64,000 nt of DNA. Source: Ascidia mentula. Taxonomy: Eukaryota; Chordata; Ascidiacea; Phlebobranchia; Ascidiidae. The notes under the pieces are model-generated. The model did no database searches. It was not told where the DNA came from and saw nothing but the letters and a program-made list of their open reading frames with translations. Location of the stretch: contig OX387198.1 in the NCBI GenBank assembly GCA_947561715.1, forward strand, positions 18,789,645-18,853,644, given 5' to 3'. Positions 8,303 through 62,960 of this stretch are shown one piece after another. Made by a program: the position numbers and the translations under genes. Each line of letters begins with the position of its first letter. The first letter of the stretch is position 1.

Positions 8303-9010
8303 CCCAGCTAACACAAAACGTTATGTCAACTTTCGTAACGTTTTTTAAAAGTTGTCCAATGGTTTCAGATCGTTTTTTTTGTCAAAGTAAATGTTGCATA
8401 AAGGTTGCATGGTATAACGTTGGCCTTCAACGTAACTCAAACGATATTTCGACGGTCTATTAAACACGACTTGAAAAAAACGTTTTTGTGTGGACCAAAC
8501 ACAACATTTTAGTGATGTTATTGAACATACGTACCGATATAAACGTTTCTGTATCGTTAATACAAGACGTAATAAAACTGTTTTACATTAACGTTTGTAT
8601 GAGGCAACATTAATCTGTTTTGAAAACATTATTTGAATTACGTTTTAAATTGTACGATCTTGTAACGTTACTAAACAACTAAATAAAAACGTTTCGTATT
8701 GACGTGTTCGTGTGGTTACATTAATCTGTTTTAAAAACGTTATTTGAATTATGTTTTAAATTGTACGTTCCTGTAACGTTACTAAAAAACTAAATAAAAA
8801 CGTTTCGTATTGACGTGTTCATTTGGTTGCATTAATGTTTTTTTTTAAAACGTTATTTCAATTACGTTTTAAATTGTACGTCGTTGTAACGTTCTTAAAA
8901 AAACAAATAAAAACGTTTCATAGTGACGTGTTCATTTGGTTGCATTAATCTGTTTAGAAAACGTTATTTGAATAACGTTTTCAATTGTACGATCTTGTAA
9001 CGTTACTAAA
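8303..9010. repeat. Left TIR and 111-bp subterminal tandem repeats
   Basis: After the terminal inverted repeat come four imperfect units of about 111 bp, starting near 8608, 8719, 8830 and 8942. Each holds CATTAATCTGTTT, AACGTTATTTGAATTACG and TTGTAACGTTACTAAA-type blocks. Repeated ACGTT and GTAACGTTAC palindromes are candidate transposase-binding sites, as subterminal repeats are in EnSpm elements. Similar ACGTT-rich repeats of another period occur at the right end (27100-27438). Confidence 0.8.
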
Positions 9011-9506
9011 TAACCAAATAAAATCCTGTCGCATGGACGAAACGTTATTTGAGTATGCTCGGGTATATACTGTCTATTACCAACTTGTTATTTTTTATGT
9101 TTCATTCACGCGCAAAACGTTGCAGTCAATTGCATTTAAAATTAAGAATAAATTCTGTTTTGTTTGAAGGAAACGACATTATGCATTGTAATTGTAAAAA
9201 TGTGTAATATAAAGTTTTGTCTAAATGAGGCGAAGTAGTAATTACTGTGTAATCCGATTTGGATAAACGTGTACCATTTGTCAGGATAAGGTGAGGGAAC
9301 TTCATCAACTTCGCTGTAGCAAACAACACCAAATATGTTTGTTGCGTAATTTACTGCGCATGCGCAACCTGTCACATGTAGTCAGTTGTGGCGTCAGGTT
9401 TGTTGGTACCGGTAATTTGTTTGCTTTATCGCTATACATCGAATATTCTTTGCATTGTTGAAAGTTCTAGTTAATCTTACTGGTTGTTGTAAAAATTGTT
9501 AGGCTT
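9011..9506. other. Leader of the CMC-like transposase
   Basis: This 0.5 kb between the subterminal repeats and the transposase frame has no coding signal. By position it should hold the promoter and 5' leader of the transposase gene; I see no distinctive element in it. Confidence 0.3.
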
Positions 9507-17748: not shown

Positions 17749-18491
17749 CTTACAGATTCAAAAACTGCTTGTGAGGTTTATGATGATACCACTTCGGTAG
17801 AGCAGTCTGATGTAGAAATAGATTGTGATAGAAAGAGGAAGCAGCGAAAAAGGCAGTTCGAGGATTTTGTGGAAGGTATTGGTTTAAGTGGATGCAAATG
17901 TATTTTAGAAAGCTTTATGATTCTCAACCTTTTATGCTTTATTATTTCCCCACAGTAATGCTTGAAAGGTAGCAAGGTCAGAGAAACCTTAGAAAGTAAC
18001 ATAAGTCAATATGTCGAAGTCTATTTAAGTGGATTTTATGAGCACAAAGCTGTCAGTCTTATTTCTTGTTAGATTTTACTACAGAAGATGAACTTCTACA
18101 CAATACACCTACTTGTTCAAAAGGTATATAATATTTCAATGCATTTTTCACTACTGCACTATTTTGTGACACCTAAAGCACTTGTATGAGTAACATAAAT
18201 TTGTTTAGGTATACCGGCACTTACAAAAATTACATCAGCAAGTAAGTTTATTGGCAGTTACAATGCATCAGACTTGTGCTCATGTTTTTTTTTACCTTAG
18301 CTTCCTCACCGAATCAGTTTTCTCGTGAGTCGTCATTTGGCTCAAATGCATCAACCGAACCACTGTCTTTAAGTTTTGCATCATCAAATGAGTTGGATGG
18401 AGTTGTCAGTGGCAAGTTAACTTTTTTAACTGGTAATAAAAATTTTGGTGAGTTAAACAGTGATTTTTATTTTGGAAGTGAGGAATTTAGG

Positions 18492-19125
18492 CGGTACCTT
18501 CTAATACTACAGGTGCGCTAGGTGCGCTAGGTCCGCTAGGTCCTTCTAATGCTACAGGTCCGCTAGGTACCTTCTAATGCTGCAGGTCCGCAGTATCCAA
18601 CCTTCTAATACTACAGGTGCGCTAGGTCCCTTCTGTAATACTACAGGTCCGCTATGTACCTTCTAATGCTACAGTTTCGCAGTATCCAACTTTCTAATGT
18701 TACAGGTCCGCTAGGTACCTTTTAATGCTACAGGTCTGCTAGGTCCCTTCTAATACTACAGGTGCGCTAGGTCCCTTCTATAATACTACAGGTCCGCTAC
18801 GTATCTTCTAATGCTACAGTTCCGCAGTATCCAACTTTCTAATACTACAGGTCCGCTAGTTCCGCTAGGTACCTTCTAATGCTACAGGTCTGCAGTATCC
18901 AATCTTCTAATACTACAGGTGCGCTAGGTCCCTTGTAATACTACAGGTCCGCTAGGTACCTTCTAATGCTACAGGTCCGCAGTATCCAACCTTCTGATAC
19001 TACAGGTGCGCTAGGTCCCTTCTAATGCTACAGGTCCGCTGGGTACCTTATAAAATGCTACAGGTCCGCAGTATCTAACCTTCTAATACTACAGGTGCTC
19101 TAGGTATCTGGTAATGCTGCAGGTT
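18492..19125 (+). repeat. Left minisatellite end of the MULE
   Basis: More than twenty degenerate copies of a unit like CTTCTAATACTACAGGTCCG followed by CTAGGTAC. Variants differ by GTGCG/GTCCG and by a CAGTATCCAA insert. The array is in the opposite orientation to the right end. Confidence 0.92.
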
Positions 19126-19184
19126 CGTTAAAAATTATTTATTTACAACTTATTTACAAGTTAAATTGGAAAACACGAAGAGTG

Positions 19185-22100
19185 TTAACTTTTATCCTTC
19201 TTGGTCTTTGCTTCCTGAGCTTTCTTTTTGGAGGTTTTATTTGCCCTCATTCGTGTTTTTTGATTTTTCTTCTTCCCTGCTCTTGCAGGGGGAGCCTTTG
19301 TCAGCAATCTGCTGTTAGCCGCAATTCCTCTGTCTGGTTTTCTTTTCAAACAGTACGCTTGAAAGTTATTGAAATGTTTCAACTTTTGATCTGTGGACAT
19401 TTGACTCCATTGTTGCACAGACAGTTGGAAGGAGGTGTACCCCTCACTCAAGCAAAAGGGTCCTGTTTTAATAAACGCCTTTTTGACATCAACATATTGA
19501 CTCTTCACAATGCCGAATAGCAAGTTAATCAGTTGTGGTAGCTTGTTTTGCTTCCATTGGGCTTTAACTTTTATTACGTGGTTCATGCATTCCACGTTGT
19601 TGTTTGTCCACAAACCGCCAACATCTTTTTTCATATTCCAAACACGTTGTTTGAGTGACGGAAGAAATCTGCTGTTCATATAGTTATGGATTAAAGGCCA
19701 ATTTTTTGAGAATTCGATGAAAGCTTCCTCTTTTGTGGTATATGTTACTTCATCCTTTGCGTGTATTAGTTCAAAATAAAATTTTTGCAATTGTTGTTTC
19801 AATTGAATAGAAAGGCCAGCATTGTCTTCCCAATATTTGATGAGGTTACTGTGTAAGTGGCGGCTGCAGAGCACCTGTTTGCAGCCAGGAAATGCTTGCA
19901 TGGCAGCTTTGTGTAACGCCTGCTCGTCGTCCGAACCAAATATTAGGTTTTCAAAACGGTTTCCCAGCTGCGAACTTAAGTTGCAAAAAAACTCTATGTA
20001 CGTGGAATAATCGGATCTGTTGTGTAAAAATATGGGTCCAATAAATACAGGGTTGTCTCCTGTCGCATTTCTCAAAACGCCTAAATTTTTGAACGTTGTT
20101 ATTGTTGCATGAATCTTTCCGAGGTTAAAGGTTTTGTCAGCGCAAAACACGGTTTTTCCCATGAGACAAAATCTTTTCAAATCTTGCAACTGTTCTTCTA
20201 GGTATAAATGTACAGAAACTGGGACTTTTTTGCCGTGTACAACCCGTTGAACGAATTCGTGACTAATAGCCATATTTATCACTTCTGTAATTTCATCAGC
20301 ATAAGTTTGCGGCTGTGGGTTATTCATCTTTTTCTTATCATTAAACTTTTTTCTGTGCAATTGTTCCAAATCTCTTGGTCCGTTTGGGGGAGTATATTTC
20401 ATCTGAAGCTTGTCGTAAAGCGTTTTAGCATTTTGGCCTTTGCTGAGCTCGTCGCCAACGTTTGCAAGAAGCTCAGGGTTGGTTCTCAAATATACGTTGT
20501 CTTGGATTTTGGCATTGCCGTGACATTTATGGCCAGGGTGACTACCTAAATATTCAACAAGAGCAAAGTTTTGTCGTGTTTCCGAAGATTTCATAATCCA
20601 TGTAATTTTCCTTTTAAAACTATTGTCTGCTTTCAGTTTGGCGTAGTATGTTCCAACATGAGTCACATGTTTTTCTTCTGGTTGTGGTTCTAATCGAAGG
20701 TATGTGTTTTGTTTTGGAATCCTAGTGCAATAAGCACCGCGATGTATACGAACTTCAACCAATTTATGATTCTTTGGGATGTAACATATTTTAGTATATT
20801 TGCACTTTTCCCATGCACCACAGTCGTCAAAAAACTTCTTTTGCATATTTGCCGCGGCTCTGTCCATATTTTTCTGATTGTTTACTATGAAATACCTGTT
20901 GTCTTTGTTTCCCTTCGGAATTTCCTCGAGACATGTTTTACATTTAGTTAAGATATTTATAATTTCCCTTGTCGGTAAAAAGTTGTCGAGACACAGATTG
21001 CCGAACTGGGGATCTGCACTAGGTTTAGGACCTCCTTCTTCTTCAATTACAGATATTTCGTTTGATGTTGGTTTAATGTTGGATATTTTTGTATGGGACG
21101 ATTCAGGATTTATTTTTCCACTTTCAGATAGTTTGTTTGATTCCTCACTGTTGCTTGTTTTTGATTTTGCTTTAATATCCGGCAAAGAGCACTTTATTAT
21201 TGATGCTGTTTCATCTATCAACAAGTGGCTGCTCTTGTTGTGCGAGTTGTTTAAAAATGAAGAGTGGTTGTACAAAGAAGGAACTCGCGTTTGGCCTGTA
21301 ATATCACTAAAACTGGTACATTCTTCTTCTTTTAGATAGTTTTCTATATTCATTGCACTTGTTGGAGTAGAATTTGAAATACAGCTATTTTTTCGGCATA
21401 TGGCTACGAAATGGTTTGGTGTCCATGTTTTATGTGTTTGTAATCCAAGCCTTGTCCACATGATATTTATAGGTTCGGTATTAAAGCTGTGAACTGAAAA
21501 TTGCCTGTTCAAGATCGCTAAAGTGTTGTCTAGTGGGCCGTTGCAAGGAGGATATATACTGTTTATTGGTCTTCCCAACACGCTGCTCAATGCCAGCATG
21601 GTCCAAGCACTCGAAAAGTTTCCAATAACAGCACAGTCTTTGCAAGACGTTTCATATTCAGGAGATACAAGGCTCAACTGAGAAGCCATAGAATGATTGA
21701 TATATATATCCCTATTTTGGACCATTTCAATACACGTACGTGCTCTTAGTTCCTGAGAAAATTCTGCACTCCCGCAGATGCAAACGGATGCTGCGTTAAA
21801 AAGGCAGTTTCCATCCCCAACAGTTTGCAGTGCCGCCCATGTTTCATCTAGTATGTTGTATTCGGTCAGCAATTCCTGAGCATACATATCTATTGCGTCG
21901 TATTGGTGTCTGGAAATGGGCTGCTGAAACTTGCCAAACAGGTATATTCCTTCCAAAGCAGCACATTTTTTCAAAGAGTGCATTCCACATAAGGCAGCCT
22001 AAAGTCACAAGTATTTACTTGGTTTTGAAACAAATATCACGTTGAAAAAATACAAGCACCAAGTTCAATGTAGGTACCCTGGTTGATATCTACTGAAGTT

Positions 22101-22461
22101 TATTTCTAACTTGCAGCGTGTAATTGTGTTTATTTGTAATGGACATGATTGTTTAGATTTCCTTTTTTCGTGACATATTAAACAAGTACACTTCATAATC
22201 CCAGATTTTGTTTTACTTTAGGCCACTTACCTTTCCCATCCTTAAAAGACAAGCACAGTAGTTAAAAGTCCCATCAGGTGAGTTTCTGCATGACGGGCAT
22301 ATAAATGGACAGCCAGAAGCATCTTGAAAGGCTTTGAAATTATTATTGGTTAGATAAAGACAACTTTGGTGAAACCATTGAAAGCAAATTTCACAGAGGA
22401 CTGAATTTCCCTCGCATTCGTTTTGGCACTGGCCGCAAGGCCACCGTCTTCGTTTAGGCAT
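19185..22461 (-). CDS. PHD-OTU-MULE transposase, two exons
   Basis: Exon 1 (22461-22231) starts MPKRRRWPCG and encodes a full PHD finger (Cys9, 12, 23, 26, His31, Cys34, 55, 58). It ends at a GTAAGT donor. A 232-bp intron ends in TTTAG, and exon 2 (21998-19185) continues in the same phase, giving about 1014 residues without a stop. An OTU-type cysteine protease follows, with VGDGNCLFNAAS (Asp139, Cys142) and NHF (His273). Next come a low-complexity linker, a Cys/His-bearing DNA-binding-like region (about 465-575), and the MULE transposase core. The core has ADKTF (Asp698), FGSDDEQAL (Asp767/768), CSRH (788-791) and NNNVECMNH (Glu880), followed by a Lys-rich tail. PHD fingers read histone tails and OTU domains remove ubiquitin, so the protein may combine chromatin targeting, deubiquitination and DDE transposition. 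It is flanked by the element's own ends. Confidence 0.88.
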
Positions 22462-25064
22462 AACCGATCGAGGTTGAGATTAACTGCACAAGTCTTAGTA
22501 CAAACCAACCGGACAAGTCCCAAAATATCTTAAAACATGCACTGGAAATTAATGTGCATGTTTAGGTACCAACATAATGCAACTTTTTTTACCCCAAAAT
22601 ACATACACCGGCCCCATAATTGCCGAAAACAAACTGACGACATCACCAAAGCGCCAAGCGAGCAAAAACAGTATGCCACGAGACCGCATAAAGCGCTATT
22701 TGGAATTAAGAAATTAATAAGGGGAGTAAAAAAGTTTTTTTTTAAATCCCCTGTGGATAAATATTTCACAGCTCTAAAAACCAAGGAAAGTAAGGCTCAA
22801 AAAAATGGAATTAGTTACTTGCTTTGCCAACAATAAAATATAAATTATCAATGATGATTTTTTTTCTCTTAAACCCCTTTGAAATTAAATATTTTGATGA
22901 TAAACTATTAGAAACTGAAACAAGATTTAGCAAGTTACTTTGTATGCATTTTGACTTTTGGTTTAATTAAACGAGGATTTGTTACATCTTCTGACTGGGT
23001 TTTCGGTCCCATAAGTAGTTACTAACGTTGGTAGATTTCTTGTTTGTTTCATCGTACTGCGTCGAACTTTTTTTCGTCAGAAGTAAGCATCGTTATTGTG
23101 TTTCTCGTTTTATAGTAACAGATTTTGGTTGCAGTTAAAAAATAAAAGTTTGATTGTTGGCTCGATTGGTAGTTCATTTGGTTTTATATAGTATTGGTCA
23201 CAACGAATATTTGTTTCGGTGAATTGAAAACGTCTTATCGTTTCAGTTCATACAATTTGTTCGATGCAAATTCAGGTCAATACATTTTCCCGAACTCTTC
23301 GAATAATTTTAGGAAATGTGGTTGCATCGCCTATGATTTGAAACTCGGATAATCATTTCTGTTTAGAATAATACCTTAAACGTGTGACGATAAAGGACAC
23401 TCGAGGTTAATTAAGGTAGGCCATTAAAATTTTCAAAAGCGATTGTTTTGAATACATCGTAGCGTCTCGTGTTTGGTCGTTAAAAATTCCTTGTAGTAAC
23501 TGCATATTGTTTAAAGTCACCATCAATTTATTCAAACCGTCAGACTGTCGCAACATTGTCGCAAAACCCCATTGCATGTATTGAGTATCGTTTTCTCGTC
23601 CCTTTCACTTCCCTTTTGTTTTACATTCACCGAACTCGTACCTGCACCGTCGATAACAACCACTGCTTGGAACCTCTAACAATTATTTTTCTTTTCTTTT
23701 ACACCTTCGTCCTTTATAAGCCGTCACATTCCCTATCTTGATACGTTGAGAAATATATATGTTGTGATATATATATATGTTGAAACAGATATATTCAAAA
23801 ATACTCTGTAGACTATACTGTACGAATAAAACAACACGGATTTTTTTTACGTTAATCGGTGAGACGCATTGTATGCTGTCAGAAAGGTTAGACGGTAAAT
23901 ACCTTTTAAAATATCTACACAAATTTAAACTGGTAAGAAACAGAGAATATGTTCGTATATATTTTATTGCGCTTTATTTGGAGTCGGACTGTTAGTATAT
24001 GAATCTTCGGTTTTTGTCGCTTTACTAGCATTGGATTTCTTTTGAGTCAGATAGCGCATTAATAATATTAAGGCAAGTAATCGAACGCTTCAACCTCGTA
24101 GAATTCAAGAAAGTAGAATTCAGGTCCAATCCGAACAAAACGAGATCTGAGCTGGTCAAACGACTATGAGACCGAAAACTATGATCTATTTGAGAAAAGA
24201 ATCGCAAATGTGTGGGGAGATACCAAAGTCAAAAAAAGATCAAGTTTAAAGAAAATATGAAAATGTTATGAATTATGACAAGCCGAATTTTCTACAAGAG
24301 CAACAATTCCTTTTTCAGTGCGATACAACAACTTATGCACACAAGTTGTTGTGTGGGAAACAATCCAAAATTTATGTTAAAGCTGGTGTGCGGTGTAAGT
24401 GTCCAGTTGTGAAAAATACCTTTCAAAAATCTGCAGCTTACAAAGGTGAGTCACAGTTTATATCGTCCTTGAAGTTTGACATTCAGTGTATTCAAATGTT
24501 TCGTTATGTCCACAAAAAAGCTTAATCCGGGAGCCAAGCAGGTTCTGATAGTTCTTTCGTTGGTTCCTCCTTTACACAAAATAAATGTTGAACCTTTTTT
24601 CTAGGAAAGAAAAGTGCCGAACCCGACTAAACCAACTGACATCTCTGTGATAAATGATGTCTGCCAAGCAAAAAATGTTGAAACAGGCAGTATCGCAAAG
24701 CTCTTAACGAATGACATTAATCGTTTTTGTCACTGGTTTTATGACGTGATCAGATTCAAAAAACTTTTGCAAAGAGAGCCTGTTGGTGGATAATGCAGTA
24801 CAATTTAATACAGTTGCCCCTTCTTCGCTGACTTTGCTAAAGATCCACTTTGTTTACCAGTCAGGACAGGTGTACCATCAGTGACAAGTTAGGCGCATAC
24901 AATTGCTTCGACTTTCAGTATTATAGCTAGGACTACTTTTCCTAATAAAGGCGGAATGACCTACTAACGTCATCTTATACAAGCCCCCAAAAAATTTGCA
25001 AGGAATGTAATAAATTTCCGTGACGGGGCCACTTTTGTAGCGCGGGCAGATTTGGACACCCCTG
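22462..25064. other. Promoter side of the MULE; possible small spliced frame
   Basis: This 2.6 kb inner region upstream of the transposase should hold its promoter. It contains a dispersed repeat at 23486-23715 (second copy at 34037-34255) and a segment at 24155-24300 resembling 27478-27625. On the + strand a Cys-containing frame from ATG 24268 runs to a GTGAGT donor at 24446. A TTTTCTAG acceptor follows at about 24604, and the frame then closes within 25 bases, predicting a protein of about 68 residues. MuDR-type elements often carry a second gene, but I recognise no family here. Confidence 0.4.
23486..23715. repeat. Dispersed repeat, copy A
   Basis: About 230 bp match 34037-34255 with moderate divergence, including ACCGAACTCGTACCTGCACC, GATAACAACCACT and GGAACCTCTAA blocks in the same orientation. 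One copy is in the MULE and the other in unassigned sequence, so it is an older repeat carried along or inserted. No ends or family are recognised. Confidence 0.8.
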
Positions 25065-25659
25065 TATTAAAAGGTTGAATATAGCGGACCTCTAATATTA
25101 GAAGGGACCTAGCGGACCTGTAGCATTATGTTGAATATAGCGGACCTCTAATATTAGAAGGGACCTAGCGGACCTGCAGCATTATGTTGAATATAGCGCA
25201 CCTGTGGTATTGGAAGGTACCTAGCGGACCTAGCGTAGTATTATATTGCATATAGCGCACCTGTAGTATTATGTTGAATATAGCGCACCTGCAGTATTAC
25301 AAGGTGCCTAGCTGACCTGTAGTATTAGAAGGGACCTAGCGGACCTGTAGTATTACAAGGTGCCTAGCTGACCTGTAGTATTAGAAGGGACCTAGCGGAC
25401 CTGTAGTATTAGAAGGACCTAGCGTAGTATTATGTTGAATATAGCGCACCTGTAGTATTATGTTGAATATAGCGCACCTGTAGTATTACAAGGTGCCTAG
25501 CTGACCTGTAGTATTAGAAGGACCTAGCGTAGTATTATGTTGCATATAGCGCCCCTGAGGTATTATGTTGAATATAGCGCACCTGTAGTATTCCAAGGTG
25601 CCTAGCTGACCTGTAGTATTAGAAGGGACCTAGCGCACCTGTAGTATTAGAAGGTTGCC
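25065..25659 (-). repeat. Right minisatellite end of the MULE
   Basis: About twenty degenerate copies of the complement of the left unit (GACCTGTAGTATTAGAAGG type), with variants carrying ATGTTGAATATAGCG. The array ends at GGTTGCC, next to the 9-bp target duplication. Confidence 0.92.
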
Positions 25660-27099
25660 GAATTTAGGTACATAAATTTTATGAAAATATGTTTGTTTTT
25701 TCTCTGATCAAGTTCAAACCAGGGAACTTGATAGATTTTGTATTGCAGCAAAACTGGAGCGAATGGAACAGAAAATAGCACAGATTCACGGTATCTTAAT
25801 ATCCCAATTTGGAATGACAATTAAAGACAATTTTGATTGGGATAGAGCAATGGACAGTATTGAACAGTATAAGGAACTTAATGAGAAGCTTCAAGAGAAA
25901 AAATATGCAAAACAGTTAGTAAGTTACACCTCAGTCAGCCTCTGATGGGATAATTGTTTAAAAACTAGCATATATCTTATTTTATTTACATTAATTTATT
26001 TACAAACAAATTTTTAAATAAGCACCAAAGCTTATTGCCTAGGTGTTTTATTTACTGGGCCATATTTTTTCTTGTGCAATTGCTTTGTAACATCATTTTG
26101 TGCTGGGAGTTTTTTGCCAGGTAAAATACCTGTGTTCCCTTGGAGGCACTAGTGTCAGTGAAGTGGTTAGACGGATGATGAAGGAGTTAGGAACCACATC
26201 ATTATGGGCAAAGTTCAGCTTTTTTGGTAGAAAGGGAAAAGAGTCTTTTGCGGCCCAAAAGTTGTGCCAAGTTGTTTTAAGTAAGTGTGTTAATAATGCA
26301 AATATAATTAAAAACGAGTGTCATAAATTCTTGGCCAATCACATGATTTTCTTCGATGTTTATGTTTTACTATTCATAACTTCATTATTTTTTTCTGAAC
26401 CAGTTTTTGTTGGCCATGATGGGTTGTGCTCCACGGGTGTGGAGATACTGCTTCAAACCTTTAGTGCATTACCACATTTTATTGGAAATCCCAAAAGAGT
26501 AACATATTTATTCTGGTGCTAAATTTTCCAATAACTAATTTGTTTTGCATATGATTGTTTATTTATATGTTCATTATTATATTTCCTTTTTTGCCAGGAG
26601 CTGGAATGAATGCTGCCGGTGTAACTGCAAAGGAGGTTGAGACACAAATTAAAGACATCTTAAAACAGGCTCCACATAAAAAAAGGCGGGCCACTTTATC
26701 AGGTATTTCATTAGTTCAGTTTAAAATCACATATTTTATGAGATTATTGCAGTTTTGTTATATTACTGACCACAATTCACATACCAAATGTTATGAATGT
26801 GTTTGTCAACGTTTTTTTTTTAAAAGCAGTGGTATGGGCTGTGAAGCCATTTTTAGTTGGACACAGATTTTACGTTTTGTCATATGCCTAAAATGGACCT
26901 TGAAATTACAATTAACTTGGCTATGAACGACTGTAACCCTCCAACGTCTGCAAGTCAGAGTTTGCCACTTTCCGACTCTGAATAGTATCTCTTAAGTGGT
27001 GATTTTCGTACATGAATACATGGAAAGAAATGATTTTGATTGTTCTTTCTTCATCAGATGATACCAAACCACTAGGTTAGAAAAACTTTGGGCAGGTAC

Positions 27100-39349: not shown

Positions 39350-40545
39350 CTAAACAGAACCAAGAATATAAAGTCTGTCTAGTTGCCATGGAACGGAGCC
39401 ATCCTCACTATGGAAATAGTTTGCAAAGGTGTCTCGAACTTGAGATGCCTCGACTGGAGATCGTCTACCTGTTCTCTGCAATGGACAAAAGTTGGAGGCT
39501 GAAGCATTTTGACTTCTCCAAACTCCCCTTGTGTCTTCAAAGTCAGCTGAATTTGGCTCCACGTAATGAAGTGATACTTTTTGTCTTAAAAAGTTATGCA
39601 GAACAGTGCAAGCTTTCACAACTAAATCCACTGTGTCTGGCTTAACTAACAGTGGCCTATGAAAAACTCTAAATCGTACGGGCACGGGATAATCTATAGT
39701 TAAACACCCTTTGCTTAACTGTTAAACCAGTTCCTGGATAAGGTCGCATTAGGTTTGTTCTCAAAGGAAAAGCCTCGTCACCTACAAACACAAAAGGAAC
39801 TTGTATATCTGTGCCAGGTAATGAATTTAACACAGGAAGGGAAAGCAAGTTATCCTTAAGCCTACTACCAAAAATAGAGTTTGACAAAATACTTCCATCA
39901 CTTTGTTTTCCAAAAGAACCAATATCCACAACTGCTAACAAAACAATACTAAAGCTTTTTTTGTAATTAAAATAGAGCGATCCTGACTTGGCAGGTGCCT
40001 GAATTAACACATGCTTTCCATCAATGCTTCCAACACAATTGGGAAATTGCCAAAATGATTGGTACTCTCTTGCATTTTTTTCCCATCGATTTTTGTCAGG
40101 AACAGGCATAACTTCTGGTTGAAGTGTTTTCCATATGGCAGCACATGTATCAGGAATAATTTTGGAAACTGTGGACTTGTGAGTATAAAAACAAAATTAA
40201 AAGTTAAGCCTGTTACCGCAAAGTTATAGCCAATCTTTCCCCAGCAGGTATTGATCTTCTTAACTGTGGCTTTCTCAATATCCTCATTTCCCTTAATAAC
40301 TTATGATATTCCCCTGACAAAAAAGTATTGTTTTGCCAAAATCCAACTAATTTTAAAGAACCTTTACCATTTTCGATGCGTGATTGAAGAATAGGATGAA
40401 CCCAATGACTTCTCGATTTTCTGATTGCTTTACTTTGTTTGAATCTCATTAGTACATACAATAGCTTTAACTTTAATTTATAATTTGACTTTCCATTGCC
40501 CCGAAACCTCGGGATAGTTGGCTTTTTCGTAAGTACAAGCTTCAT
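39350..40545 (-). pseudogene. PIF/Harbinger transposase, copy 2
   Basis: The N-terminal exon (40545-40213) carries RKSRSHWVHPI and GEYHKLLREMRI. After a short gap or intron, the core reads FPNCVGSIDGKHVLIQAPAK (first Asp), then VVDIGSFGKQSDGSI, then VPFVFVGDEAFPLRTNLMRP (second Asp) and RVFNYRLSRAR (Glu side). It then continues through LLVKPDTVDLVVKACTVLHN. A break occurs near 39670-39685, where the frame changes just after the LSRAR motif. Harbinger DDE transposases cut at 3-bp TWA-type targets. This copy is fairly young, with one or two lesions. Confidence 0.75.
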
Positions 40546-51910: not shown

Positions 51911-52779
51911 GACTGGAAAGACACTCTGTATTAAAACTCTGATTTCACGCGCCCTACAAAGCGACATGCGAGTTTACGTTGCGACGCCAGTTGGAATGCT
52001 TTCTGCAAGTTACAAAAGTGAGTTTGGAAAGAAAATCGCAAGTAACAGTGCATTCAGTTTTTTCTATTCCTGTTAACAAAGACCAAAATTACCAGACAAA
52101 CTGGTCCCTCAGGCATTTCGATATAATTGTTGTAGACGAAATTTCAATGATATCGCGAAAGCATGCCATGCATATTGTCGCTACCCTAACATCCGCAAGA
52201 GTGTCACTGGTTATATTTTGCGGCGATCGTAATCAATTACAACCCGTATACAACGATGAAGAAAACATACGTGGCAGTTTGTTCGATGATGTTCACTTGA
52301 TGTCGCTGTGCCGCCGAACAACACTTGTCCAACAACACACAACGCAAGACGTGGAGGTGCAGAAGTTTTTGGCCATTATTCGTCACATCAAACCAAATTC
52401 GACAGATGTCGAACACTTTGTGGAGGGTATTTGTCTGGGCACGTCTTATCGACCGGACGAGCAAGAAATTACGGATGCATATTGGAGCAAAACTCAATCG
52501 TTTTTTACCTTCACAAACTTCCCACTTAAACAATACGATTATCAATTGTTTACAAGCCAAACACCAGAGATCCACATCAAGTGCCCCCGCTACACTTGCG
52601 GAATGAAAATGATGCTCACAGAGAACCGTCAAAAAGAGAGAGGCTTTGTGAACAGACAAATAGTAACTGTGGTATCCGCAGTTATCAAAACAATTCTTGT
52701 TTCATATCTAACCCTATCTAAACCAACCCAAGCCCTAAGAAACCCCCCATGACCACAAGTGGGCCTTATCCTAAAAACC

Positions 52780-56620: not shown

Positions 56621-57080
56621 TCTAAAACAGAAACAAAACTGATTAGTATTTATAAACCAATAGCTTAGTACACTACAATAATAGGAAAGAATATTCACTC
56701 ACATTTGCTCCTTTCTCTGTCTGACTCTAAAACAGAAACAAAACTGATTAGTATTTATAAACCAATAGCTTAGTATGCTACAATAATAGGAAAGAATATT
56801 CACTCACATTTGCTCCTTTCTCTGCCTGACTCTAAAACAGAAACAAAACTGATTAGTATTTATAAACCAATAGCTTAGTACACTACAATAATAGGAAAGA
56901 ATATTCACTCACATTTGCTCCTTTCTCTGCCTGACTCTAAAACAGAAACAAACTGATTAGTATTTATAAACCAATAGCTTAGTACGCTACAATAATAGGA
57001 AAGAATATTCACTCACATTTGCTCCTTTCTCTGTCTGCCTCTAAAACAGAAACAAAACTGATTAGTAGTTATTAGCCAAT
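56621..57080 (+). repeat. 105-bp tandem array inside the MULE-type element
   Basis: Four nearly identical units start at 56621, 56726, 56831 and 56936, with a fifth partial unit from 57040. Each begins TCTAAAACAGAAACAAAACT and ends near TTTGCTCCTTTCTCTG. The array abuts the left TIR. Confidence 0.92.
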
Positions 57081-58244
57081 AGCACACTACATAGACTTAC
57101 AATAACCAGATTTAAATAGTGTTTATGCACGTACTAAATAGTGTTATATATAAGTATAAAGATTAGTATTTTTACATGTCTCTTCCAGAAAATTTCTTCT
57201 GGGACCCATCTGTAAAAAATTAAATGAGATAAAATTCTTTACTTGTCAACTTATTTTATATGACAGTAATGACACCACTTACTCCGATGTTTTGGGGATC
57301 TTGTTTTCACTAAATTAAAAAAAGTGTGTTGGTTGGCAAAAACTTGATTCAACTGTGATTAATTTAGTAACAATACTTTGTTTACGATCTCAGTTGGCTC
57401 CCAATATTTCTGGATGTAATGCACTTGCAAACACTCATGGCATTTGCGACACACAATTTCAAAATCTATCAGGGCAATTACATTATTGGTCACAGAATTG
57501 GCTTGTTCATTGACAGCATTTCTTCCAAAAAATTCATTTTTGAGCATAACTTGCACAGTTTAAGAACCCAACAACAAGACCAACACTTTTCTACATGTTT
57601 TTAATGGGCATCATAAAGATTTGGTTAATAAACGCAACATGTATAACAAGTATCTTACGATTGCAGCCGGCAAAATTCCTCCTTTTCGAGGAATCTATAA
57701 AATATATTCAGTTAAAGTAAAGGGGTAATCAGTGGACACCACCACAAAAATAAAACTATGCTTGTCTTCAACTTTATCTTGTGCATGAGGTTTTAAATTT
57801 TATCTGGTGCACTCAACAATTACCCAATGCACATCTTTGCATTCAGGGGTGTTACTATCGGACACTGACACCATGTATTAGTGTCATAACAATAGCCGTC
57901 CAAAATTTTAGTATAAAGAAGTGTTATTCTTACCTTTTTCGCGTTGCAAATTTCTGTGAACATAAAATTATGTCAAACGTATATTTTTTCAACAAAAAAT
58001 ATGCAAGTAATTCTCCACCTACCTTTTTGGGTTGTTGCTGGTGGTGGTGGTTAACCACCACCGATTGAACGGAATTAAAGTTAAACTCCATTTCTAAATT
58101 AACAAAAGCATTATTAAATAAAGAATACTAACAACGTACAGTTATACAAATAACTTTTCTTATGAAACCACACAAACGCCATCGCACGCTGCAAAAAAGG
58201 ACCTTGTTCACGTGATTTCTTTCCCGCCGTTCATTCCGTGATAT
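57081..58244. other. Interior of the MULE-type element, no gene recognised
   Basis: AT-rich filler. The minus-strand frame at 57359-57556 contains VCRKCHECLQVHYIQKYW, a possible zinc-ribbon scrap, without further support. Confidence 0.35.
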
Positions 58245-59654: not shown

Positions 59655-62600
59655 AATGGAACATTGCCAGAACGCAATTAAGGAATTTGAAACTTCCACG
59701 ATGAAGTTCATTCAACAAAGGAAAATTTCATATGGTAAATCTGAGTTATTGCAGTAGTCTGTTGTAAAAAATTGTGATTTTGTGCAGACATTTCCAAAAG
59801 TTTAATATGCTGGGATGAATCCTTTGTTCCATATGTAATACTAAAATCTACATGGTTGGAATGTCAGCATGGAATAGACCGAAACAAAAAATACAATGAA
59901 AAGCGGAAAATAGAAGCTCCGAAACAGGTAAAGAGAAAAAGGTTTTGTCATCAGTTGCAAGACTATCCTAATTCGTTCAAGAAACACTTGTAGCAAAATT
60001 ATGCATTCAAGAAGTTTGCAAGTTTCCACAATTTCAGGTGACGAGCATTCTTAAAACTTAAATAAAAACATAATGATATTCATACAATTTAGATGTCCAA
60101 ACACAACAGACGAAATAAAGCAAATTCAAGCGCAGCCATTAGAAGTCTGTTGGCTGGAAATGATAAAAACATTATTAAAAAGTTGGAATACAAAGTTTCC
60201 TTTCCTAGTGAAAGTGAGCATTCTGGCCATGTTTTGGGTCAAGTATGTAATTTCTAACACCCTTTAAAAAGAAACTTGTATTGCATGAATGTTGATACTC
60301 ATTTCATGGTGCTGGTTTCTTACAGCCAGTTGATAAACGGTTAATTGAGAAAATTGATGAATTGGTATCTGAAGGTGTCCATTCTGTAGATGAAATTATG
60401 CGACATCACAAATATTATGTGCTTCATGAACTCTTTAAAAACGGTGATAGACCAGCACCAACAAACAGACGATTTTTTCCTAAAGCCTTCACCAGACAAA
60501 GACTCTCCAAAATTGATCAAACAAATGTCCAGTGCTTAGTTGATGAATGGACAAAAAATGCAGAGATAGGTGACAATATTTTGTTTCGACCATACAAAGC
60601 TGGTGATAGCTGGAATGAAAATTCCAAATCCGTTGATGGTCAACAATGGCAAGATAAACCACTTAACCAAACCATGCTGTTTGTTCATCAATTTGCTTGG
60701 CAGCGCAGACTCCTACTGCGTTATGGTCAAGACATTTGCCTTATGGATTGCTTTTTGTTTGTGTAAAGACAAATGTTGGCTATCAAGTCGTTGCAACTTT
60801 CATCACTCAAAATGAACGGCAACTTGACATTGAAGAAGCACTCTCAGTTCTCAAAAAATGGACACCAAATTGGAAACCAGCATTTTTTATGACAGACAAA
60901 TGTGATTCAGAAATTAATGCGATTGAAAATGTTTTCAAAGGTAAAACATTCTTTATGAGAGCTATTGCCAATGCTGAGAGCAAAGGAAGTTTTCAAAAAG
61001 CTTCGAGCAAGTTCCAGTCAAGTTCGTACTGTAGCGACAACAAAAGGCTACAAAAATATTTCACTAATGTTTGGTTGACAGAAAATGAAGTAAGAAATCA
61101 GGTTTAACACAGTATTTATGCAGCATAAAAATAGAGTTTTGGAATGCCACATCCGTTTTAGAACAGACAAATCTCTTTCTGGGCTTATTACGATTTTACA
61201 TGAAGAGTTTCTGCCCGAGGGATTGGTTAAGTAAGTTTGTTATACAGAAACTTGTGTATTTGTAGTAAGTCTTGAATTGTTACTATTATAACAAATATAT
61301 TAAAGCAGTGCATTTTAGGTGTCAACGAGAAAATATGAGATGCCTCAAAGAAAATGGATGAACCTGCAACCAAGTCATTAGACGAACCAACACATTCACA
61401 TGATTATGAAAGAAACAAAGTGCCTTCGGATAAAAGTTCAAATTTGCAGAAAAGCCATCATAAGTTTGTTGAAGTAACAAAGGCATTGCTGGGCATGTCC
61501 TATGATGTAACTTCACCAGTCGTTTTAGATGAAGCAACTGCAAATGTTGAAACAATGTTATCCACATTTTCAAATGCATGTTGTTTTGACAGCGGTTTCA
61601 GAATAATTCAAACACCAAAACTGAAGTCGCTAAAAAGAAAAAGACCAGCATATTCACAATCCAAAAACGATGAGCTGCCTAGAAAACAGCCAAATCCATA
61701 TGCTTCAAGGGTTGATGCCCGGGCAAACCTCATGCGACCTTTGCACCAAGTGAAAACATTGTTTCCTATAACAGGGGGAAAAAAACAAGACCGTTATTGC
61801 AGAACCCATGGATGACGACTTTGTTGAACCACCTTCATTCACAGGGGAATTGCATAAAACAATGATAACACCACAGATTGCAAGCAAGCAGAGCAAGGTT
61901 GATCAGCAATTGTTAAAAAATGGTCCCCATTCTCTCTGTATGCTAGACCTAAAAACAGTTGAACCTTTATTGCCAGACTGTGAGAAGGTCATCCTTAAAT
62001 CCAAAGAAAACTGATGAAGTCATCAACAGTTACTTGTGGAGATTAACCACTGCAAACAGCCATACACTGTATGTATGTTCCATGGTTGTCCGAACACTAA
62101 TGCAAAAAGGTTCTATCAAAAGATTGTGGAGTGGTGTCTCCTTTGACAAAGAACAAATTATTTTTTTGCCCTGGATAACTAAAATACATTGGATTCTTCT
62201 TGCAGTCAACATTAAAAAAAGACAATTGTTATATATTGATCCGTTGAAAAATTCCTGTGTTTACCATTTACAGGGTGTTGCTAAGGCAACATCAATGGTC
62301 GACCATTTGTTGTGGCAAAAATTCCATTTCAAAATTGAATTAGTGGAATCCCCAAAACGGGTTTATCAACCGGATTGTGACAGCTGTGGAGTATTCATTT
62401 GCATGTATGCCAAATGGCTTGCTATGGGTATAAGCCTTGAACAAAGGTGTTCTGTATACCTGTACAGAAAAGAAATATTCGACAGTATTTCTGGAAACTG
62501 CCTAACTGGCAAACTTAGAAGACAGAAATGCAAGTTTTACAATGACAATACTAAGACTCTTTGGGTTGAATGTACTAGATGCAAACAATGGTTCCATGTA

Positions 62601-62663
62601 GAGTGTGTAGGCAAAACCGTTGGCAATGCATCAGATGATATGTATTTTGTTTGCCCAAGTTAA
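59655..62663 (+). pseudogene. MULE transposase with Ulp1-type protease and PHD-like finger
   Basis: Early exons (59655-59930) encode a FLYWCH-like N-terminal region. The transposase part reads LVDEWTKNAEIGD, then FVHQFAWQRRLLLRYG and CLMDC. It continues with FVCVKTNVGYQVVATFIT, KKWTPNWKPAFFMTDKCDSE (second Asp) and AIENVFKGK; sequence is missing between CLMDC and FVCVKT and again after FKGK. A spacer rich in Lys and Ser follows. Last comes a C48 (Ulp1-like) protease in the frame 61959-62663: His77 (IHWILLAV), Asp94 (YIDP), Gln137 and Cys143 (QPDCDSCGVF). A partial PHD-like finger closes it (CTRC…WFHVEC). Frame shifts near 60770, 61110 and 62000 make it non-functional as it stands. Confidence 0.75.
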
Positions 62664-62685
62664 ACATGCAAATGTGCAATTTTAG

Positions 62686-62960
62686 CAATCGCTTGGTCAT
62701 CGAGTGAGGTGTATATGCCACTATGCTGTGCGAAGGTTGCAAAACCCTAGCCAGTGCAATCGCTTGGTCATCGAGTGAGGTGTATATGCCACTATGCTGT
62801 GCGACGGTTGCAAAACCCTAGCCAGTGCAATCGCTTGGTCATCGAGTGAGGTGTACATGCCACTATGCTGTGCGAAGGTTGCAAAACCCTAGCCAGTGCA
62901 ATCGCTTGGTCATCGAGTGAGGTGTACATGCCACTATGCTGTGCGAAGGTTGCAACCTTT
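62686..62960 (+). repeat. 71-bp tandem array
   Basis: Units start at 62686, 62757, 62828 and 62899 with CAATCGCTTGGTCATCGAGT and differ at only two or three bases. The array begins about 25 bases after the MULE-Ulp1 stop codon, so it is probably part of that element's 3' region. Confidence 0.95.

Follow-up and report, generated by a model that had tools for sequence, protein, structure and literature searches.

A probable Rehavkus-like MULE transposon of Ascidia mentula with tandem-repeat ends and a gene joining PHD, OTU and MULE domains

Several described transposons share single traits with the element considered here, which occupies positions 18492-25659 of a 64-kb stretch of Ascidia mentula DNA (contig OX387198.1; the whole stretch is called the window). 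Rehavkus, a relative of the Mutator-like elements (MULEs), is described as having a PHD finger, a 9-bp target-site duplication (TSD) and, ahead of the 3' terminal inverted repeat (TIR), a minisatellite (PMC6446971), and the 9.5-kb Rehavkus-1_TC is described with inverted termini that contain tandem 164-bp units (PMC10218199). For the Hydra MULE MuDR-6_HM, an Ovarian Tumour (OTU) domain is listed (PMC6446971). In Aedes, 10 of the 12 long-TIR Muta families reported carry subterminal tandem repeats of 9-15 bp (PMC5225508), and Tm1 is described with asymmetric tips of 7 bp (CGGTTAA/CCTACCC) and a repeat unit near 14 bp (PMC3169594). The Ginger1 transposase is reported as fused to OTU or Ulp1, with PHD in one listed family, and Bao et al. 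suggested that OTU or Ulp1 may activate repair factors (PMC2836005). In Galileo, a foldback element of the P superfamily, experiments are reported to place binding sites of the transposase's THAP domain in the tandem repeats of the TIR (PMC3688188).

Judged by its sequence, the element at 18492-25659 is almost certainly a transposon. It is 7168 bp long, with a copy of GAATTTAGG on each side. Taken as a whole, it quite probably represents an intact-looking cut-and-paste MULE transposon, whose transposase would be loaded onto the terminal arrays and whose PHD and OTU domains would form a host-interface cassette. Cut-and-paste transposition by the MULE core is suggested by the tips and the TSD length. 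The features concerned are the following, in window coordinates.

18483-18491, no strand: left copy of the TSD, GAATTTAGG, 9 bp
18492-19130, no strand: left terminal array, tip CGGTACCTTCTAATAC, then 28-bp units with the 9-mer AGGTSCGCT
about 25061-25659, no strand: right terminal array, inverted relative to the left one; reverse-strand tip GGCAACCTTCTAATAC
25660-25668, no strand: right copy of the TSD, GAATTTAGG, 9 bp
22461-22231, minus strand: exon 1, 77 codons, from ATG to AAG|GTAAGT; carries the PHD finger
21999-22230, minus strand: intron, GTAAGT...TTTAG, phase 0; splice predicted from the sequence
21998-19188, minus strand: exon 2, 937 codons, acceptor TTTAG|G; stop at 19187-19185
22288-22437, minus strand: PHD finger, Cys4-His-Cys3, within exon 1; closest solved chain Pygopus
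21390-21899, minus strand: OTU cysteine protease domain; Cys142 and His273 of the 1014-residue protein
20229-21068, minus strand: region between OTU and core, presumably DNA-binding
19479-20228, minus strand: MULE (DDE) core; D698, D767, C788/H791 and E880 of the 1014-residue protein

The two arrays of this copy are inverted repeats of each other. Tandem Repeats Finder assigned them a period of 28, with 20.1 and 20.9 copies. Allowing at most one mismatch, the 9-mer AGGTSCGCT occurs 20 times in the left array (639 bp) and 19 times in the right (599 bp); the 28-bp units combine it with the 14-mer CCTTCTAATRCTAC, which is nearly identical to the tip. Autocorrelation of these arrays peaks at 28, with 9 in second place, and that of the arrays in the second full-length copy (L039) peaks at 9. 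Inversion alone is not distinctive, because four more inverted pairs of at least 60 bp occur elsewhere in the window; inverted arrays together with a TSD are. The two tips already differ inside the first four bases, one reading CGGTACC... and the other GGCAACC..., and the same pair was found at L040, L041, L042 and L044, with a variant of it at L043.

The predicted gene between the arrays comprises 77 + 937 = 1014 codons without an internal stop. The catalytic codons of the OTU domain lie at 21804-21806 (Cys, motif DGNC) and 21411-21413 (His, motif NHF), and those of the MULE core at 20136-20138 (D), 19929-19931 (D), 19866-19868 with 19857-19859 (CxxH) and 19590-19592 (E). In Pfam, PHD (1.5e-5) and OTU (5.1e-6) each exceed their cut-offs. 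The MULE model PF10551 matched the window protein at 5.4e-5 and 24.0 bits by hmmscan, below the 27.6-bit cut-off, and at 27.9 bits in the genome search, above it; the relative L003 (33.8 bits) and others also exceed the cut-off. The core of the window copy matches the MULE, Transposase_mut and IS256 models. Among solved structures, the PHD finger is best matched by Pygopus (2.4e-6). In Pygopus, the Trp of a W-F-H motif mediates binding of the PHD to methylated H3K4, and this Trp was found in the window PHD and in all nine other PHDs listed. An OTU profile built from the relatives matches OTUD1 (3.6e-8). The catalytic Cys in DGNC and the His are both present. The OTU domain is likely to be an active deubiquitinase. 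The original prediction, made from the letters of the window, had described 9-bp duplications, ends of inverted repeats of about 27 bp, a two-exon gene of about 1014 residues without a stop, and a PHD finger, an OTU Cys and His and a D/D/CxxH/E core. All of this agrees with the present results, save that the unit length is 28 bp.

The genome (196 Mb; window copy on contig C2) was searched for copies and relatives, a check that had been proposed along with the prediction, and it yielded a second full-length copy, gene-less copies and divergent relatives. The second copy, L039 on contig C73, is 99% identical to the window copy in exon 2 and is flanked by a different 9-bp TSD, GCGTTGATG (read by eye). 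An assembly artefact or a single odd locus was thereby ruled out, and the prediction of a single element gained support. Since both copies are so similar and both have exact TSDs, the element was probably mobile in the recent past. The left array, used as a query, gave at least 121 genome matches; 60 match rows clustered into 33 places, with coding matches near three of them. Arrays occurring apart from the gene, which the original prediction had regarded as fatal to a single element, are thus literally present. They are not counted against it here, because the gene-less places are read as non-autonomous copies. Exact 9-bp TSDs back this reading at three of the eight such loci read (L040-L047), namely L040, L041 and L044, with ten matching bases at L041. 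Together with the window copy and L039, exact 9-bp TSDs were seen at five of the ten loci whose ends were read.

Two further stretches lie inside the element.

22514-22947, no strand: 434-bp stretch directly 5' of the gene, absent from L039
23463-24092, no strand: nested independent repeat, present in both full-length copies and absent from the non-autonomous L040

The nested repeat is a 630-bp insertion with more than 20 further matches across the genome. The element itself interrupts GAATTTAG|GTACAT where an open frame ends (flanks 18246-18491 and 25669-25945), and may have struck an exon-intron border of a gene; a Pfam search of this flanking frame gave no match.

Divergent relatives retain the protein plan. 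The protein search, in which 49 of 87 candidates were scored, gave at least 64 matches with identities of 23-100%, and relatives whose proteins are about 30-50% identical keep the order PHD-OTU-MULE. Of 16 fetched loci, nine (L039, L048, L049, L050, L006, L059, L061, L063 and L064) have a PHD finger with the strict Cys4-His-Cys3 pattern; L005 (77.8% identical) and L065 have PHD matches in which the pattern is incomplete; and no PHD was found in L060, L062, L066, L007 and L067, some of these five being cut short or broken. A motif survey of 15 loci, the window included, found the OTU motif DGNC in 12 (it is missing in L066, L007 and L005), and each of these 12 also has NHF; D1 of the MULE core was present in 13, D2 in 14 and WxNN..E in 10. 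L059 holds PHD, OTU and MULE in a single open frame of 805 codons, with scores of 19.1, 16.1 and 16.2 bits that are all below the cut-offs, and the open frame of L006 runs through PHD and OTU into the first part of the core. Two unrelated neighbouring genes, one for PHD and one for OTU-MULE, were ruled out as an explanation, since PHD and OTU-MULE stay together in the relatives and share a single frame in L059. In the joined locus J62 (L073, L062 and L072), neither clear ends nor, by pattern, a PHD finger was found. Pattern searches of IMG/VR (36 matches) and of GTDB genomes (97 matches) contained no relative.

Inverted terminal arrays occur in six lineages, including that of the window, with units of 9 or 10 bp and words that differ (by eye). 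Five of the six have OTU, the exception being L066. The outermost bases are similar between lineages (by eye).

Window: word AGGTGCGCT, 9 bp, inside the 28-bp unit; tips CGGTACCTTCTAATAC and GGCAACCTTCTAATAC
L048/L063: word GTGCAACTAT, 10 bp; tips of L048 CGGTCCTTCTAAAAT and GGGTGCTTCTAAAAT; TSD of L048 CTGCACAAC, 9 bp
L050/L061/L065: word GGGTTGGCA, 9 bp; tip of L050 CGGTTCCTCTAAATAT
L059: word ACGCGAACC, 9 bp, with 61-bp repeats inside; tip GGGGCATCTCTAAAAT; TSD CTTTCTTAG, 9 bp
L064: word CTATTACGA, 9 bp; tips CGGTGTTGCTAAAAT and GGGTGTTTCTAAAAT; TSD TTACGCTG, 8 bp
L066: word CGCAATCTG, 9 bp, 18 copies at one end and 3 at the other; tip GGGCTTCTCTAAAAC
L049 (for comparison, no array): tip GGACCCCTTTAAATAC; TSD GCATAAACA, 9 bp

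Exact 9-bp TSDs abut the tips in eight insertions: the window copy, L039, L040, L041, L044, L048, L049 and L059 (J59). L059 and L066 have sister cores, and their words are partly alike, ACGCGAACC/ACGCAATCT (by eye). L066 lies at G000:C69:12463000-12467500, where four matches of nearly equal score occur within about 23 kb, one of which was read. L060, a relative of L049, was seen at one end only.

A comparison of L064 with L050 suggests that the accessory domains can move independently of the rest. The two share a DNA block of 1275 bp at 88% identity, comprising PHD, intron and OTU; its start lies about 140 bp ahead of the PHD match, its identity drops to background just past OTU, and its intron is 69-89% identical. 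No second DNA match beyond this block was found by blastn at E<=1e-5. Their proteins are 31-51% identical in the pre-core region and core, and their array words differ. In the OTU tree, L064 joins L050/L061/L065 (100/100), with placement inside or beside this group not separated (p 0.52), whereas in the core tree it falls outside the L050 group. One recombination event thus seems to have moved PHD-OTU as a unit, the array word staying with the core. The case for a swap is built on the shared DNA and on the differing arrays, because the core-tree test is not significant: a core of L064 joined with the L050 group is not rejected (approximately unbiased test, p 0.137). In L064, the linker after OTU has grown into an 87-bp (29-codon) tandem repeat at 1835-2253, in the open frame 1214-2272.

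Synonymous and non-synonymous differences were counted, the counts being small. Between the window copy and L039, the numbers (synonymous/non-synonymous) are 1/0 in PHD, 0/0 in the 170 codons of OTU, 3/2 in the region before the core and 2/1 in the core. The ratio of non-synonymous to synonymous differences per site (pN/pS) is 0.27 (counts 8/8) for the OTU of L050/L064, 0.40 for that of L050/L061, 0.26 for the core of L049/L060 and 0.21 for part of the core of L048/L062. The deeper pairs show constraint, and some recent pairs look like decay.

The following course of transposition may be proposed. The DDE core would cut at the short tips, which are alike across lineages, and the region before the core, perhaps with the core itself, would bind the units of 9-10 bp, roughly one to each helical turn. 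An array could load many transposase molecules, and a short word could gain high specificity. The array would then act as a cooperative binding platform, which fits because an element has the same word at both ends and each lineage has its own. A role of the arrays as transposase-binding sites is rather probable, and multivalent binding has an experimental precedent in Galileo (PMC3688188). PHD and OTU would form a separable, exchangeable host-facing cassette, in which PHD would anchor the complex to the tails of histone H3. OTU would strip ubiquitin either from the transposase itself or from chromatin or repair proteins close by, allowing the complex to survive or the break to be repaired. 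Self-protection and action on chromatin or repair are equally tentative as the purpose of OTU, each being a possibility that falls somewhat short of an even chance; OTU and PHD may serve targeting or escape, as the original prediction had it. The further proposal that PHD-OTU recombines as a unit between MULEs, and that core and word coevolve like lock and key with the period conserved and not the word, is close to evenly balanced and leans slightly towards the negative.

Several observations weigh against this picture. The window OTU alone found OTUD5 in the PDB at just 0.031. The presumed DNA-binding region (20229-21068) gave no match to a hidden Markov model, and its structural model is poor: exon 2 was predicted with a mean predicted local distance difference test score (pLDDT) of 52.4 and a predicted template-modelling score of 0.35, and the blocks of OTU and core lie mostly at 60-88 pLDDT, that region mostly below 50. 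Many relatives have stops or frameshifts, including one stop in L039. Neither the PHD-OTU cassette nor the arrays are universal: L066 combines arrays with a MULE core but lacks PHD and OTU, and L049 ends in a 41-bp TIR instead of an array. Ends were read without a TSD at L042, L043, L045, L046, L047, L050 and L066, and without an exact one at L063. The swap is a single event. Finally, pN/pS is 0.47 for exon 2 of the window copy against L039, owing to a divergent C-terminus (6.5/18.5), 0.58 on three changes for the OTU of L049/L060, and 1.08 on five changes (1/4) for that of L048/L063.

The arrays might instead have arisen passively, by minisatellite expansion through slippage or unequal exchange in long inverted ends; the tips alone would then be functional, and the word would have no binding role. 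Their fast change in length agrees with this: in L039 they measure 1040 and 1462 bp with 60 and 98 of the 9-mers, against the 639 and 599 bp with 20 and 19 in the window copy, and since exon 2 is 99% identical, arrays must change much faster than the gene. L049, moreover, manages without them. A passive origin is nevertheless unlikely, given that the same word stands inverted at both ends of an element, that the unit stays at 9-10 bp while the words vary, that the word differs between L064 and L050 where the core differs, and that the sister cores of L059 and L066 go with partly similar words (by eye).

Chance capture of host gene fragments, as in pack-MULEs, would leave PHD and OTU without a role. 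MULEs are reported to capture gene fragments (PMC6431247), and L066 lacks both domains, but the PHD-OTU order and the catalytic residues are kept in divergent lineages. Compared with the window copy, the OTU domains of eight loci (L048, L049, L050, L060, L061, L063, L064 and L065) are 44-51% identical, which at least equals the 41-44% of the cores that aligned as one piece (L048, L049, L050, L060 and L061); L059 and L006 are exceptions, with 31% in OTU and about 40% in the core. In the tree, the transposon OTUs also stand apart, weakly (82/83), from two further OTU frames in this genome. Capture by chance is accordingly very improbable, and a retained host-facing cassette is preferred. A different alternative concerns novelty and overlaps with the preferred reading: the element may simply be an undescribed Rehavkus, whose transposases may already hold an unlisted OTU. 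The PHD finger, 9-bp TSD and minisatellite of Rehavkus, and the tandem units in the inverted termini of Rehavkus-1_TC, favour it (PMC6446971, PMC10218199), but the published passages on which the comparison is based give Rehavkus no OTU; it is a real though lesser possibility.

Transposon-like frames are abundant in the window. A transposase-like stretch lies at 60296-62663, with an ALS2CR8 domain at 60296-60766, and downstream of this domain one frame contains both a Ulp1 peptidase (1.4e-9) and, as a partner, a PHD finger (2e-5). This makes a second case, 35 kb from the element, in which a ubiquitin-like protease is paired with PHD. Fragments of a DDE_Tnp_4 transposase and a PIF1-like helicase lie at 39669-40196 and 51943-52752, and other minisatellites at 8608-9023 (111-bp units), 56621-57083 (105-bp units) and 62685-62955 (71-bp units).

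Compared with known systems, the family belongs to the MULEs, probably in a Rehavkus-like branch. It has the D, D, CxxH, E core of Mutator/MULE transposases and TSDs of 9 bp (eight insertions) or 8 bp (one), within the 8-11 bp of that group. With Rehavkus, as described for Rehavkus-1_TC and Rehavkus-1_HR, it shares the 9-bp TSD, the PHD finger in the transposase, tandem repeats in long inverted termini (L049 being without arrays) and large size. It differs from the Rehavkus descriptions in its OTU domain, and from Rehavkus-1_TC in having units of 9-28 bp instead of 164 bp. The Rehavkus hosts known so far are arthropods or annelids; in the genome studied here, neither PF00379 (cuticle) nor PF00876 (innexin) gave a match, and the control genomes gave none either. 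MuDR-6_HM is likewise a MULE with an OTU domain, but its TIR entry reads 'None' and no zinc finger type is given in that listing (PMC6446971). Phantom/Muta and Tm1 resemble the family in their reported TSDs of 8-10 bp and ends with 9-15-bp tandem repeats, and Tm1 also in its asymmetric tips (PMC3169594, PMC5225508); unlike it, their transposases are given as about 416-554 residues, mostly with FLYWCH, and OTU and PHD are unmentioned in the Tm1 paper (PMC3169594). For the window protein, L003, L059 and the parts of L004 and L008 searched, Pfam gave no FLYWCH match at E<=1, and a genome search with PF04500 gave no match, nor did the control genomes. Membership in Phantom was rejected for lack of a FLYWCH match, a feature of many Phantom members, some being without it.

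Ginger1 also combines a transposase with OTU or PHD accessory domains, but its DDE domain is described as of the Gypsy-integrase type and its accessory domains as C-terminal; membership was rejected because no integrase model matched in Pfam at E<=1, the GPY/F motif itself not having been searched. Galileo similarly has tandem repeats within long TIRs and differs, as described, in its THAP domain and P-element superfamily. The original prediction knew of no element with PHD, OTU and repeat ends together. Each is known singly, and the combination was not found in the published accounts consulted, those of Rehavkus being descriptions; the same holds for the word series and the cassette swap. The claim was overstated insofar as Rehavkus, with PHD, minisatellite and 9-bp TSD, and MuDR-6_HM, with OTU, are published. 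The genome offers a natural series of six array lineages, six repeat words and one PHD-OTU swap, which opens two questions to testing. One is whether a transposase recognises the tandem repeats of foldback ends; the other, raised for Ginger1 (PMC2836005), is of what use ubiquitin proteases and histone readers are to a DNA transposon. The family thus unites traits from scattered entries, the PHD finger of Rehavkus and the OTU domain of MuDR-6_HM.

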